Shown: piece after piece, positions 25,544 through 30,823 of the stretch | How positions within the stretch are numbered: the stretch's first letter is position 1 | How the letters are laid out: each line of letters starts with the position of its first letter | DNA from: Streptantibioticus silvisoli | GTDB taxonomy: Bacteria > Actinomycetota > Actinomycetes > Streptomycetales > Streptomycetaceae | NCBI RefSeq assembly: GCF_027947535.2 | Contig: NZ_JAAGKO020000064.1 | Span: 1 to 37,845, forward strand | DNA: 37,845 nucleotides | Direction: 5' to 3' | Notes under the pieces: model-generated | What the model saw: the letters and a program-made list of their open reading frames with translations, nothing else | Databases searched by the model: none | What the model was told of the DNA's origin: nothing | Program-made: the position numbers and the translations under genes

Positions 25544-27856
25544 TCAGCCCTTCTCCAGGTAGCTCTCGCGGGAGGCGTCGACCAGGGCGGCGAGGGCGGT
25601 GCGCAGGTCGGGGTGGGCGTCGAGGCCGGGGTCGGCGGCGACCAGGGCGGTGGCCTCCTCGCGGGCGGCCTCGATGACCTCGACGTCGTCGATGACGGTG
25701 AGCATCCGCAGGCTGGAGCGGGTGCCGGACTGGGCCTGGCCGAGGACGTCGCCCTCGCGGCGCTGTTCGAGGTCGATGCGCGACAGCTCGAAGCCGTCCA
25801 GGGTGGCGGCGACCGCGGCGAGCCGGGGGCGGGCCGGGGACGCCTCGGGGGCGTCGGTGACCAGCAGGCACAGCCCCGGCGCGCTGCCCCGGCCGACCCG
25901 GCCGCGCAGCTGGTGGAGCTGGGAGACGCCGAAGCGGTCGGCGTCCATGATGACCATGGCGGTGGCGTTGGGGACGTTGACGCCGACCTCGATGACGGTG
26001 GTGGCGACCAGCACGTCGACCTGGCCGGCGGTGAAGCGGCGCATGACGTCGTCCTTGGCGTCGGGGTGCATCCTGCCGTGCAGCACCTCGACGCGCAGGC
26101 CCTTGAGGGGACCGTCGGCGAGCTGCGCGGCGACGTCCAGCACCGCCAGCGGCGGACGCCGCTCACCGTCGCCGTCGGCACCGCCGTCCGGGCCGCCGTC
26201 GGGACCGGCCGCACCGTCCGCCGCCGCCCCGCCGGCCCGGCCGCCCTGACCCGCCTTGGCCGCATTGGCCGCCTTGCCCGCCTTGGCCGGCTTCGCCCCG
26301 CCGGTCCCGGCCGCGCCCTCCTCCTCGTCGCCGATGCGCGGGCAGACGACGTACGCCTGGTGACCGGCGGCGACCTCCTCGCGGACGCGTTCCCAGGCGC
26401 GGGCCAGGAAGTGCGGTTTGTCCCTGGCCGGGACGACGTGGGTGGCGATCGGGGAGCGGCCGGCCGGCAACTGGTCCAGGACGGAGGTCTCCAGGTCGCC
26501 GAAGACGGTCATCGCGACGGTGCGCGGGATCGGGGTGGCCGTCATCACCAGCAGGTGCGGCGGCTGTTTGCCCTTGCCGCGCAGGGCGTCGCGCTGCTCC
26601 ACGCCGAAGCGGTGCTGTTCGTCGACGACGACCAGGCCGAGGTCGTCGAACCGCACCTTGTCCTCGATGAGGGCGTGGGTGCCGACGACGACGCCGGCCT
26701 CCCCGGTGACCAGGTCGAGCAGCGCCTTGCGGCGGGCGGCGGCGCCCATCGAGCCGGTGAGCAGCACGACCTTGGTGCCGCGGTTGTCACCGCCGAGCAT
26801 GCCGCCCTCGGCCAGGTCGCCCATCATCTCGGTGATCGACCGGTGGTGCTGCTGGGCCAGCACCTCGGTGGGCGCCAGCATCGCGGCCTGCCCGCCGGCG
26901 TCGACGACGGCGAGCATGGCGCGCAGCGCGACCAGGGTCTTGCCGGAGCCGACCTCGCCCTGGAGCAGCCGGTGCATGGGGTGTTCGGTGGCCAGGTCGG
27001 CGAAGATCTCACCGGTGACCCGGCGCTGTCCGTCGGTGAGGGTGAACGGCAGCCGGGCGTCGAAGGCGGTCAGCAGGCCGTCGGCGGCCGGTACCCGGGC
27101 GATCGCGGGCAGGGCGGCGTCGTCGGCGCGGCGGCGGGCCAGCGCGACCTGGAGGACGAACGCCTCGTCCCACTTGAGGCGTTCACGGGCGTCGTCGATG
27201 TCGGCCCGGGTGGCCGGGCGGTGCGCCTTGCGCAGCGCGTCGGGCAGCGCGGCCAGGCCGCGGTCGGTCCGCAGGCGTTCCGGCAGCGGGTCGGCCACCT
27301 CACTGTCGAGCCGGTCGATCACCGCGTCGACGGCCTTGGCGATCTGCCAGGAGGAGATCTGCTTGCACGCCGGGTACAGCGGCAGCAGCCGTCCGGCGAA
27401 GGCGTCGACGGCCTCGGCGCCGCCGGGCCCGTCGGCCTCGTCGGCGTCGAGCAGCTGGTAGTCGGGGTGGGCCAGTTGCCGGGTCCGGTTGAAGACGTTG
27501 ACCTTGCCGGCGAACATGCCGCGCTTGCCGGGCAGCAGCCGGTGGTGGTGGAAGTGGGCCGCCTTGTTGAAGAACACCAGGGTGAGCGAGCCGCTGCCGT
27601 CGGTGACGACGACCTCCAGCCGCACCCCGCGCCCGGCGTTGTAGGTCTTCTTGTCGGCCTTGGCCACCTGCGCGACGACGGTGACGTGCTCGTCCAGCGG
27701 CAGGTCGGCGAGCCGGGTCAGCTCACCGCGTTCGGCGTACCTGCGCGGGTAGTGGTGCAGCAGGTCGCCGACGGTGTGCAGGTCGAGGTGGTCGGCGAGG
27801 ACCTTGGCGGTGCGGTCGCCGACGGCCTTGCGCAGGGGTTCGTCCAGGGCAGCCAT
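25544..27856 (-). CDS. recG: ATP-dependent DNA helicase RecG
   Basis: Branch-migrating helicase that regresses stalled forks and processes Holliday junctions. It has 770 residues. The N-terminal wedge/OB region includes VGDLLHHYPRRYAERGELTRL and the OB strand VVTDGSGSLTLVFF. Helicase motifs are Walker A GEVGSGKTLVAL, the DEAH-like VVDEQHRFGVEQRDAL and motif III TATPIPRTVAMTVFGDLE. The C-terminal half has TTVIEVGVNVPNAT and the QLHQLRGRVGRG motif VI. A Gly/Ala/Lys-rich insertion lies around residues 510-550. I start at ATG 27854-27856 (MAALDEPLRK). The frame remains open for another 130 codons, but only through tandem repeats, so that extension is rejected. Confidence 0.95.
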   Translation of the reverse strand: MAALDEPLRKAVGDRTAKVLADHLDLHTVGDLLHHYPRRYAERGELTRLADLPLDEHVTVVAQVAKADKKTYNAGRGVRLEVVVTDGSGSLTLVFFNKAAHFHHHRLLPGKRGMFAGKVNVFNRTRQLAHPDYQLLDADEADGPGGAEAVDAFAGRLLPLYPACKQISSWQIAKAVDAVIDRLDSEVADPLPERLRTDRGLAALPDALRKAHRPATRADIDDARERLKWDEAFVLQVALARRRADDAALPAIARVPAADGLLTAFDARLPFTLTDGQRRVTGEIFADLATEHPMHRLLQGEVGSGKTLVALRAMLAVVDAGGQAAMLAPTEVLAQQHHRSITEMMGDLAEGGMLGGDNRGTKVVLLTGSMGAAARRKALLDLVTGEAGVVVGTHALIEDKVRFDDLGLVVVDEQHRFGVEQRDALRGKGKQPPHLLVMTATPIPRTVAMTVFGDLETSVLDQLPAGRSPIATHVVPARDKPHFLARAWERVREEVAAGHQAYVVCPRIGDEEEGAAGTGGAKPAKAGKAANAAKAGQGGRAGGAAADGAAGPDGGPDGGADGDGERRPPLAVLDVAAQLADGPLKGLRVEVLHGRMHPDAKDDVMRRFTAGQVDVLVATTVIEVGVNVPNATAMVIMDADRFGVSQLHQLRGRVGRGSAPGLCLLVTDAPEASPARPRLAAVAATLDGFELSRIDLEQRREGDVLGQAQSGTRSSLRMLTVIDDVEVIEAAREEATALVAADPGLDAHPDLRTALAALVDASRESYLEKG

Positions 27857-28282
27857 CACCGCCCAATCTTGGCGTACCGCGCTGACATCGCCCGGCAGGC
27901 GGGGGTCACGTGGCGGGCGGGGGATGCGGCGGCACGCGGTGCGAGCGGTCCACGGCACCGGCGATCCACGGCACCGGAGGCGTGGCGGCACCGGAGGCGT
28001 GCGGCACCGGAGGCGTGGCGGCGCGGGCGATCCACGGCACCGGAGGCGTGGCGGCGCGGGCGGTCCACGGCACCGGCGATCTGCGGCACCGGAGGCATAC
28101 GGCACCGGAGGCGCGGCGGCACCCGGAGGCATACGGCACCCGGCGGTGCGCGGCGCGGACGGTGTGCGCAAACCGGCGTTCTGCGGCGCGGCGCGGACGT
28201 ACGGCACCGGAGGCATACGGCACCGGCGATCCACTGCCAGCGGCATACGGCACCGCTGGCCTGCGGCCCGGCCGGCGGTGCC
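27857..28282. other. fakA-recG intergenic region, no gene
   Basis: A 426-bp gap between two minus-strand genes. All but about 100 bp next to recG is the tandem array described separately. No promoter is readable. The recG transcript either starts in the last ~95 bp or carries the array in its leader. Confidence 0.6.
27954..28264. repeat. Degenerate 16/17-bp tandem repeat array (about 19 units)
   Basis: Plus-strand units run in register from 27954 to 28264. The commonest types are GGCACCGGAGGCATAC, GGCACCGGAGGCGTGGC, GGCACCGGCGATCCAC and GGCGCGGGCGATCCAC. A higher-order 33-bp unit is duplicated with one mismatch (28003-28035 and 28036-28068), showing recent slippage or unequal exchange. The array ends 18 bp before the fakA stop codon. 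Because the period is not a multiple of three and is mixed 16/17, it is not a conserved coding repeat, though frames stay open through it. Confidence 0.85.
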
Positions 28283-30037
28283 TTACTCGACGCCGATCAG
28301 CAGCGGGCAGGTGTGCTGGCCGCCGGGGTGGACGACGGTGTCGACGGCCAGGTGGCCGGACTGGACGTGGGCCCGGAGGCGGTCGGCGAGGTCGTCGGGG
28401 GCGCCGGAGCCGAGCACCAGCGTGACCATCTCGCCGCCGGCCGCCAGCATGCGGTCCAGCACGATGCTGCCGGTCTCCACCAGGTTGCCGCCGATGACGG
28501 CGACGTCGCCGTCGATCATGCCGAGGGTGTCGCCGGCCTGGCAGACACCGGCCATGGTCCACGACTCGTGCTCGGCGACGGCGAGTTCGGCGAACCGGGT
28601 GGCGCCGGCCGCCGCGGTCATGGCGACGACGTCCTCGTCGAACCGCCGGCCGGGCTGGTGGACGGCGAGCGCGGCGATGCCCTGGACCGCGGAACGGGTG
28701 GGGATCAGGGCGACCCGGACGCCGTCGGCGCGCACCTGTTCGGCGGCGGCCGCGGCGGCGTCACGCGAGGCGTCGTCGCAGGGCAGCAGGACGACCTCGC
28801 GGGCGCCGGCCCCGCGCACGGCGTCGGCGATGTCGGCGCTGCCGGGGGCCCGGCCGTCGCGGTGCGGGACGGGCAGCGCGCCGGCCTCGGCGTACAGCGC
28901 GGCCAGCCCGTCGCCCTCGACGACGGCGACCACCGCGCGGGCCCGGTCGGCCGCCCCGCCGCTGTCCTGCGGCCGGTGGCGGGCGGCGTCGCCGAAGTGC
29001 GTGACGCGGATGCGGTACGGCCGGCCGGCCTCGACGCCGGCCTCGATCGCGGCGCCCGCGTCGTCGACGTGCACGTGGACGTTCCACAGCCCGTCGCCGC
29101 CGACGACGACCAGGCTGTCGCCGAGCGCGTCGAGCCGGGCCCGCAGCACGCCGACCGCGTCCTCGGGCGCCTCCAGCAGGTAGATGACCTCGAACGCGGG
29201 CCCGTCGTCCTCCTGGGCGGACGCGTCGGGGGCGGCCCGGTCGCGGACGGCCTCGGCGGAGCCGGTGACCTCGGCGCAGGCGGTCGCGGCAGCGGTGAAC
29301 GCGGCGCCGGCGGACGCGGCAGCGGCGAACGCGACGGGGGCCGGGCCCGGGTCGGGGGCGTGGCCGCTGATCGCCTCGGTGAGCGCGGCCAGCACCACGA
29401 CCAGGCCGCGGCCGCCCGCGTCGACCACCCCGGCGCGCTCCAGGACGCCGAGCTGGCCCGGGGTGGCCGCCAGCGCGTCCCGGGCGCCCCGGTGGGCGGC
29501 GGCGGCGACCGCGCCGAGCGGACCGCCGGCGACAACCTCGGGCGCGACGCCGTGCGCCGGAACGTCACGCGGCGCGGCGGCGAGGGCCCGGTCGGCGGCG
29601 TCGGCCGCGGCGGCGGCGACGGTGAGCATGGTGCCCTCGACCGGGTGGGCGACCGCCTGGTACGCGGCGGCGGCGGCCCGGCGCAGGGCGCGGCGCAGGC
29701 CCTCGGCGTCGCCGCGTTCGGCCAGTTCCTCGCTCATGCCGCGCAGCAGCTGGGCCAGGATCGTGCCGGAGTTGCCCCGGGCGCCGATCAGGGCGCCGTG
29801 CGCGAGGGCGCGGACCGCGTCGGGCAGCGGGAGCCGGCCGGGGTCGCCGGCCGCGTCCCAGGCGGCGTCCAGCGCGCGGGCGGCGGAGTCGACGGTCAGG
29901 TAGAGGTTGGTGCCGGTGTCGCCGTCCGCGACCGGATAGACGTTGATGGAGTCGATCTCCTCGCGGGCCCGGCCGAGCCGGCGCAGTGCCGTACCGCACC
30001 AGGTCCGCACCGTCGCTGCGTCGAGGGTGTGCGGCAC
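28283..30037 (-). CDS. FakA-like DhaL/DAK2-domain kinase
   Basis: A 584-residue protein with an N-terminal DhaL (DAK2) ATP-binding domain: INVYPVADGDTGTNLYLTV near residues 30-48 supplies the Asp residues that hold Mg-ADP, and GARGNSGTILAQLLRG follows. The long C-terminal part matches the FakA family, which phosphorylates fatty acids carried by a separate DegV/FakB protein (not in the window). In Streptomyces it is usually annotated DAK2 or dihydroxyacetone-kinase-like. The fatty-acid kinase role is inferred from other bacteria. The start is GTG 30035-30037 (MPHTLDAATV) with AAGGAG seven bases upstream; the stop is TAA, rare here. It is upstream of recG. Confidence 0.88.
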   Translation of the reverse strand: MPHTLDAATVRTWCGTALRRLGRAREEIDSINVYPVADGDTGTNLYLTVDSAARALDAAWDAAGDPGRLPLPDAVRALAHGALIGARGNSGTILAQLLRGMSEELAERGDAEGLRRALRRAAAAAYQAVAHPVEGTMLTVAAAAADAADRALAAAPRDVPAHGVAPEVVAGGPLGAVAAAAHRGARDALAATPGQLGVLERAGVVDAGGRGLVVVLAALTEAISGHAPDPGPAPVAFAAAASAGAAFTAAATACAEVTGSAEAVRDRAAPDASAQEDDGPAFEVIYLLEAPEDAVGVLRARLDALGDSLVVVGGDGLWNVHVHVDDAGAAIEAGVEAGRPYRIRVTHFGDAARHRPQDSGGAADRARAVVAVVEGDGLAALYAEAGALPVPHRDGRAPGSADIADAVRGAGAREVVLLPCDDASRDAAAAAAEQVRADGVRVALIPTRSAVQGIAALAVHQPGRRFDEDVVAMTAAAGATRFAELAVAEHESWTMAGVCQAGDTLGMIDGDVAVIGGNLVETGSIVLDRMLAAGGEMVTLVLGSGAPDDLADRLRAHVQSGHLAVDTVVHPGGQHTCPLLIGVE

Positions 30038-30155: not shown

Positions 30156-30281
30156 CCGGAGGAAGCCGCGGGGTGCGTGCGCGCGCCGGGGCCGCGCCGG
30201 AGGAAGGCGGAAGGCGGAAGACGGAAGGCGGAGGCTCGGAGGACGTCGCACCGGAGGAAGCCGAAGGCCCGCACCGGAGGA
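30156..30281. repeat. CCGGAGGA repeats and AAGGCGG heptamer run
   Basis: CCGGAGGA occurs at 30156, 30197, 30251 and 30274, the last two in the context GCACCGGAGGA. Between them, AAGGCGG is repeated four times in exact 7-bp register (30204-30231, third copy AAGACGG), making a 36-nt tract of purines interrupted only by a C every seventh base. Confidence 0.7.
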
Positions 30282-30337
30282 CGGCGAAGCCCAGACCGGC
30301 GTCCGCGCCGCAGGCCCCGACCGCACCGGCCAGCCTG

Positions 30338-30406
30338 CCTCCCTGGCCCGCGTCAGCCCGCCTCCCCGGCCCGCGTCAGGCCGCTCCCCCGGTCCGCGCC
30401 CGTCGC
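30338..30406. repeat. 23-bp tandem repeat, about three copies
   Basis: Copies at 30338-30360 and 30361-30383 differ at two positions (shared parts CCTCCC and GGCCCGCGTCAG); a third, diverged copy follows (CTCCCCCGGTCCGCG...). Pyrimidine-rich on the plus strand. Confidence 0.65.
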
Positions 30407-30637: not shown

Positions 30638-30823
30638 GTGGCTGCCAACTGCGACGTCTGCGGCAAGGGGCCGGGCTTCGGCAACAACATCTCGCACTCG
30701 CACCGCCGTACTCGCCGTCGTTGGAACCCCAACATCCAGACGGTGCGTGCCGTGGTCGGTCGGACGCCGAAGCGCCTCAATGTCTGCACCTCGTGCATCA
30801 AGGCCGGCAAGGTCGCGCGCTGA
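30638..30823 (+). CDS. rpmB: 50S ribosomal protein L28
   Basis: A 61-residue ribosomal protein, [20 protein letters not shown] at the N-terminus, with C5xxC8 and CTSC near the C-terminus forming a zinc-binding pair. This is the cysteine-containing form. [18 protein letters not shown] is the conserved rRNA-binding stretch. The start is GTG 30638, with TTGGAG about nine bases upstream. It is monocistronic: its own promoter and a clear Rho-independent terminator bracket it. Confidence 0.97.

Follow-up and report, generated by a model that had tools for sequence, protein, structure and literature searches.

The recG-fakA spacer and its tandem array

The window, that is, the whole 37,845-bp stretch of DNA analysed here, comes from a genome of 8.7 Mb in 130 contigs, which stood alone in its genus among the genomes returned. 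A first-pass annotation, made from the sequence alone, had named the two genes at the locus recG and fakA. Pfam agreed, recognizing RecG wedge, DEAD and helicase domains in the former and FakA-like and Dak2 domains in the latter. Further window genes identified by Pfam encode a phosphomethylpyrimidine kinase and an AIR-synthase-type protein. The features of the locus are as follows:

25544-27859, minus strand: recG, ATP-dependent DNA helicase, with a start at GTG 27859 or ATG 27856 (Pfam and codon model)
27866-27888, minus strand: conserved recG promoter-like block, matching 9 of the 12 positions of tTGTCRgtg-N8-TannnT
27953-28263, no strand assigned: degenerate tandem array (minisatellite), from Tandem Repeats Finder (TRF), self-matching, shuffles and hand-cut units
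28003-28068, no strand assigned: 33-bp two-unit block and its head-to-tail duplicate with one mismatch (28003-28035 and 28036-28068)
28249-28282, minus strand: hairpin directly past the fakA stop codon, from the fold of 28245-28285
28283-30037, minus strand: fakA-like gene with a Dak2 domain, starting as in our codon model; the longest open reading frame begins at 30274

Of the 423 bp separating recG from fakA, the array occupies 311. Cut by hand, it yielded 19 units; most measure 16 or 17 bp, and the commonest was CGGCACCGGAGGCGTG with or without one extra G. The count is fair, if generous. The units scored 50-88% of the consensus, and the poor ones at 28151, 28168, 28184 and 28235 reached 50-65% of a consensus in which the unit types are mixed. 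TRF returned overlapping rows within 27945-28226 with periods of 16, 17, 33, 49 and 66. Its top score for the gap was 218, compared with a mean of 26.6 (sd 20.7, maximum 75) in 300 dinucleotide-preserving shuffles of the gap. Self-matching of the array was highest at lags 33 (0.55) and 16 (0.48); the remaining lags from 5 to 69 gave 0.26-0.44, with lags 17, 30, 49, 66 and 67 at the upper end. The scores and the hand-cut units bear out the degenerate array of about 19 units of 16/17 bp that had been proposed, and, as expected of a minisatellite or VNTR, the units (about 10-100 bp in that class) follow one another head to tail more regularly than chance allows.

Unit types alternate along the array. 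The two copies of the 33-bp block differ at a single base, just as had been claimed, indicating that the array grew by blocks as well as by single units and supporting the suggestion that it expanded recently. GGAGG occurs eight times on the plus strand of the array, the number given in the first-pass annotation, and CCTCC does not occur there at all; thus, the eight CCTCC listed for the minus strand are the same sites read from the other side. The reported distance of 18 bp between the array end and the fakA stop codon was also reproduced, with TAA at 28285-28283, 18 bp past 28264.

On the minus strand, the 28245-28285 segment folds at -27.8 kcal/mol (z -3.58), which none of 200 shuffles matched, and the far arm of the resulting hairpin lies within the last array unit. 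A scan for terminators with a T run found none after fakA, and the hairpin is probably the fakA terminator, one without a T run.

Several smaller repeats and genes lie nearby. Two short arrays are located upstream of fakA (30331-30398, 23 bp x 3.0; 30202-30232, 7 bp x 4.4), and within recG a 9-bp repeat (26239-26297, x 6.4) encodes an alanine/lysine-rich stretch inside the helicase. Divergent from fakA, a 61-amino-acid open reading frame on the plus strand (30638-30823) encodes a product that looks like ribosomal protein L28 (rpmB). Our codon model missed this frame, so in every genome the DNA called intergenic below will contain some small genes.

The spacer in relatives and the block upstream of recG

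Relatives found by RecG were mostly Streptomycetaceae, for example, Streptantibioticus, Actinacidiphila and Streptomyces. From 109 loci, 80 distinct fakA-recG gaps were measured; the other 29 were dropped (16 because the stretch gave no fakA match, 11 because their gap duplicated another, and 2 because fakA was not upstream or fell below 45% identity). The 80 gaps had a median of 71 bp and a maximum of 2299 bp. With an array called at a TRF score of at least 50 and at least 2.5 copies, seven gaps contained one, all of other units with periods of 14-25, and 73 contained none. The core word of our array, CACCGGAGGC, was absent from all 80. In the nearest relative by RecG (G005), the gap measures 528 bp (522 bp in the comparison of orthologous gaps) and shows repeated words of another kind by eye, with no TRF array at the threshold; in seven further relatives it measures 35-158 bp. 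The recG-fakA spacer has thus grown differently from lineage to lineage and is array-free in most. The first-pass annotation had named, as evidence against its view, relatives with the same gap sequence and no periodicity; what we found instead were gaps that were mostly short and different. A general lengthening of the gaps in the window was rejected as a candidate, as this genome was the longer one in 12 of 27 orthologous gaps (p 0.86).

The promoter-like block sits between the array and recG, ends 12 bp short of the end of the ATG, and can be aligned across the window and 16 relatives; the array lies outside it. The consensus score was at least 8 of 12 in 28 of 30 loci, window included (mean 8.97), whereas shuffled tails scored a mean of 6.88 on the same consensus and 23% of them reached at least 8. 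The score of a single site is weak evidence, and more weight attaches to the position and sequence that the loci have in common. A sigma-70 scan of this stretch gave no match. The consensus tTGTCRgtg-N8-TannnT is presented in one report as that of LexA-independent DNA-damage promoters (PMC5656591), and another names the motif RecA-NDp, with PafBC as its activator (PMC6789036). By sequence, recG appears to carry a conserved promoter of the DNA-damage type (RecA-NDp or P1) close to its start codon, as do its relatives, and we infer that this block is the recG promoter in use. If so, the array would be absent from the RNA made from it.

Tandem arrays across this genome and its relatives

We sampled 400 kb of this genome from long contigs without regard to repeats, and 80 or 200 kb from the long contigs of each of nine relatives by the identical method. 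Loci selected because they resembled the array or its core form a biased sample and were kept out of the rate estimates. The 400-kb sample contained 81 intergenic arrays (20.2 per 100 kb) with periods of 7-106, and the units in gaps elsewhere in this genome differ from that of the recG array. Arrays were present in 59 of 263 gaps overall and in 53 of the 143 that were 200 bp or longer. The nine relatives contained 0, 0, 1.5, 3.0, 4.5, 5.0, 5.0, 12.5 and 15.0 arrays per 100 kb. This genome therefore tops the ten by count but is not alone, as G012 and G026 are also array-rich; the share of intergenic bases in arrays was 7.1% here and 6.5% in G026, the latter from 12 arrays in 80 kb. In Markov-resampled intergenic DNA of five genomes, 0.000-0.002 of the bases fell in arrays.

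In this genome, 24 of 25 genic arrays had a period that is a multiple of three, compared with 35 of 81 intergenic ones. The fraction of gap bases in arrays was 0.121 for convergent, 0.069 for codirectional and 0.055 for divergent gaps, and the nine relatives pooled gave 0.056, 0.022 and 0.005, respectively. Frame-keeping genic arrays and a larger share in convergent than in divergent gaps are expected where selection against frame and promoter damage acts on general duplication.

Mycobacterial interspersed repetitive units are likewise actinobacterial tandem repeats located between genes, but they form a single family of related sequences present at many places. Of the 81 arrays sampled here, one was a blastn neighbour of the recG array, while the 18 blastn places and the enriched core described below point towards a dispersed family. 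When all arrays were compared with one another without a low-complexity filter, 25 pairs at E <= 1e-3 and largest groups of 14 and 6 of 82 arose, which we do not trust in GC-rich repeats. Prokaryote satellites and minisatellites are described as scattered unique arrays, many in some species, with long coding ones mostly in multiples of three (PMC6749651). Those of bacteria resemble the present arrays in their head-to-tail units and scattered unique arrays, but the units here are degenerate; the density given there for Streptomyces coelicolor, 4.20 per Mb, follows another criterion and is not directly comparable with ours. The tandem repeats of archaeal Borgs are also scattered genome-wide, with nearly all units unique and genic ones divisible by three (PMC9879509). 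Intergenic Borg periods are divisible by three in 14-38% of cases according to that account, against the 35 of 81 here. Borg repeats are described as perfect and A-rich (PMC9879509), whereas the arrays here are GC-rich and degenerate, and with the units of the recG array at 50-88% of consensus a Borg-type perfect tandem repeat was rejected. Tandem repeats of longer units are stated to be generally not suppressed in prokaryotes (PMC4060949). Among the matches listed in the open literature (titles and beginnings of abstracts), none dealt with such intergenic arrays in Streptomycetaceae or upstream of recG, which does not prove their absence.

Some core-like words are more frequent in this genome than in others. 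The 14-base core form GGCACCGGAGGCGT has 19 copies here and 0-5 in 40 relatives, and within this genome alone GCACCGGAGGC occurs 110 times compared with 37 for the reversed word. Close pairs of CACCGGAGGC number 24 here and 0-6 in the 40 relatives; the reversed-word control is also raised (6 pairs compared with 0-1), so this excess partly reflects general repeat richness. A blastn search with the array found 18 places in its own genome at E <= 0.001, the array included. Intergenic clusters of the core (at most two mismatches), in which units are in part spaced by 16 or 17, lie in C45, C38, C40 and C42. The commonest word of the array, CGGCACCGGA, occupies 16 one-kb bins of the 400-kb sample, the upper quartile for the words of other arrays being 15, and occurs in 9 of 241 gaps compared with 1 for its reverse.

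In G012, the top-ranked gap 10-mer, CCGGAGGCGT, overlaps the core and occurs in 5 of 139 gaps, where 0.38 were expected. Of its sites there (L249-L258), one lies in an array (L252) and the others are scattered single sites in the stretches printed; here, the word occurs in 2 of 241 gaps. A repeat 'dialect' of the genome was rejected, since the recG core is absent among the 18 gap 10-mers ranked top against a Markov model. The 8-mer GGCACCGG occurs in 52 of 241 gaps here, and its per-base rate is about the same in G005 (15 gaps in 28 kb). The core enrichment, the spread of CGGCACCGGA and CCGGAGGCGT in G012 suggest that the arrays may not all be independent. We attribute the core excess to favoured words together with a set of arrays that our own search selected, and some copying between arrays may also have occurred.

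Origin of the array

Taken together, these data make it probable that the recG-fakA array is an intergenic minisatellite produced by tandem duplication, most likely functionless, and one of a genome-wide population of arrays whose units are mostly different. The neutral, slippage-prone reading in the first-pass annotation fits best: the presence and the unit of the array differ among relatives, gaps elsewhere in the genome have units of their own, and the array does not reach into the promoter-like block. A short GC-rich stretch beside the fakA terminator hairpin may first have been duplicated in tandem, and duplication may then have proceeded in larger blocks (16, 17 and 33 bp). Because of the block structure of the array, slippage in replication or unequal recombination would be the duplicating process, with decay by point mutation since. 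The site follows fakA and precedes the recG promoter-like block, in DNA that would tolerate insertion. Both the duplication mechanism and the neutrality of the array are inferred.

A more speculative and rather doubtful extension is a genome-wide burst of intergenic tandem duplication in this genus, in which some arrays share a core word that spread between loci. The driver would be some alteration of replication or repair that leaves NucS and SbcD in place, and array load would differ about tenfold among genera within a single family. These bacteria are reported to use NucS instead of MutS/MutL repair (PMC7736090), and in Streptomyces the loss of NucS is reported not to change the indel rate considerably (9 against 19 indels; PMC11109965). 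The NucS_C model scored over its cut-off in 41 of 41 genomes and the SbcD model reached E <= 0.001 in 25 of 26, with 14 of 26 over the cut-off, this genome included in each case. Loss of mismatch or hairpin repair was therefore rejected as the cause of the arrays, as both genes examined, NucS and SbcD, are present.

The first-pass annotation had also allowed for a protein-binding array. Each repeat would then be a site for a DNA-binding protein that regulates recG or fakA or organizes the chromosome, which we regard as unlikely. The repeated core, its enrichment in this genome and the overlapping word top-ranked in G012 gaps would suit such a role, and the 33-bp double unit is, by arithmetic, near three helical turns. 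However, CACCGGAGGC is rare in the unbiased sample (3 of 241 gaps, 5 one-kb bins of the 400 kb), and for 28 of 45 other arrays the commonest word is at least as widespread in one-kb bins. In addition, seven of the core clusters fall within predicted genes, where their spacings are multiples of three, and the unit is not conserved at this place in the relatives' gaps. The binding reading thus gains little support, although a local site is possible.

An equally improbable role is that of a transcription insulator or auxiliary terminator halting read-through from fakA. The strong hairpin past the fakA stop codon is in keeping with it, and in codirectional gaps of this genome the array is closer to the upstream stop in 28 of 41 cases (Wilcoxon p 0.009); in the relatives, this holds for 24 of 37 codirectional arrays, which is not significant (p 0.18). 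Moreover, over 36 non-overlapping array/stop pairs, words shared between a unit and the hairpin of its own gap had a mean length of 6.53 compared with 6.12, and 4 of 200 permutations were as high. Local base composition could yield so weak a resemblance, however, and growth of arrays from the terminator hairpin was rejected, the excess being weak. The array does not itself contribute an unusually stable fold, and 73 of the 80 relatives' gaps do without one.

The remaining suggestion, a structured RNA leader of recG or part of a longer RecG protein, is very improbable: GC-rich RNA and a recG frame open through the array from ATG 28246 (900 amino acids) speak for it, but the promoter-like block shared with relatives lies downstream of the array, recG begins at 27859 by our codon model, stepping by 16 or 17 bp from unit to unit shifts the frame, and folding is no better than in shuffles. 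Specifically, the array RNA (27940-28282) is less stable than shuffles (z +2.68 on the minus and +1.67 on the plus strand), two array parts folded alone on the minus strand gave z +1.28 and -0.03, and Rfam at its gathering threshold had no match in the window. The structured leader is thus not supported, and the array is probably not a leader of recG.

Read as a functionless minisatellite, the single recG-fakA array matters little, being one more of its kind. Its context may matter more: by one method, related high-GC genomes span 0-20 intergenic arrays per 100 kb, and if the 400-kb sample holds for all 8.7 Mb, this genome has about 1,750. The family offers natural contrasts for what makes and removes tandem duplications under NucS repair, and the arrays are candidate loci for strain typing. 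Arrays near contig ends (L196, 1-340, outside predicted genes; L208, 102-299, inside) look as if repeats broke the assembly, which may therefore understate copy numbers. In 400 kb, four perfect repeats reached both three units and 50 nt. A perfect 7-bp repeat x 17 between predicted genes (L225, 16109-16227) is a clean candidate for a variable locus.
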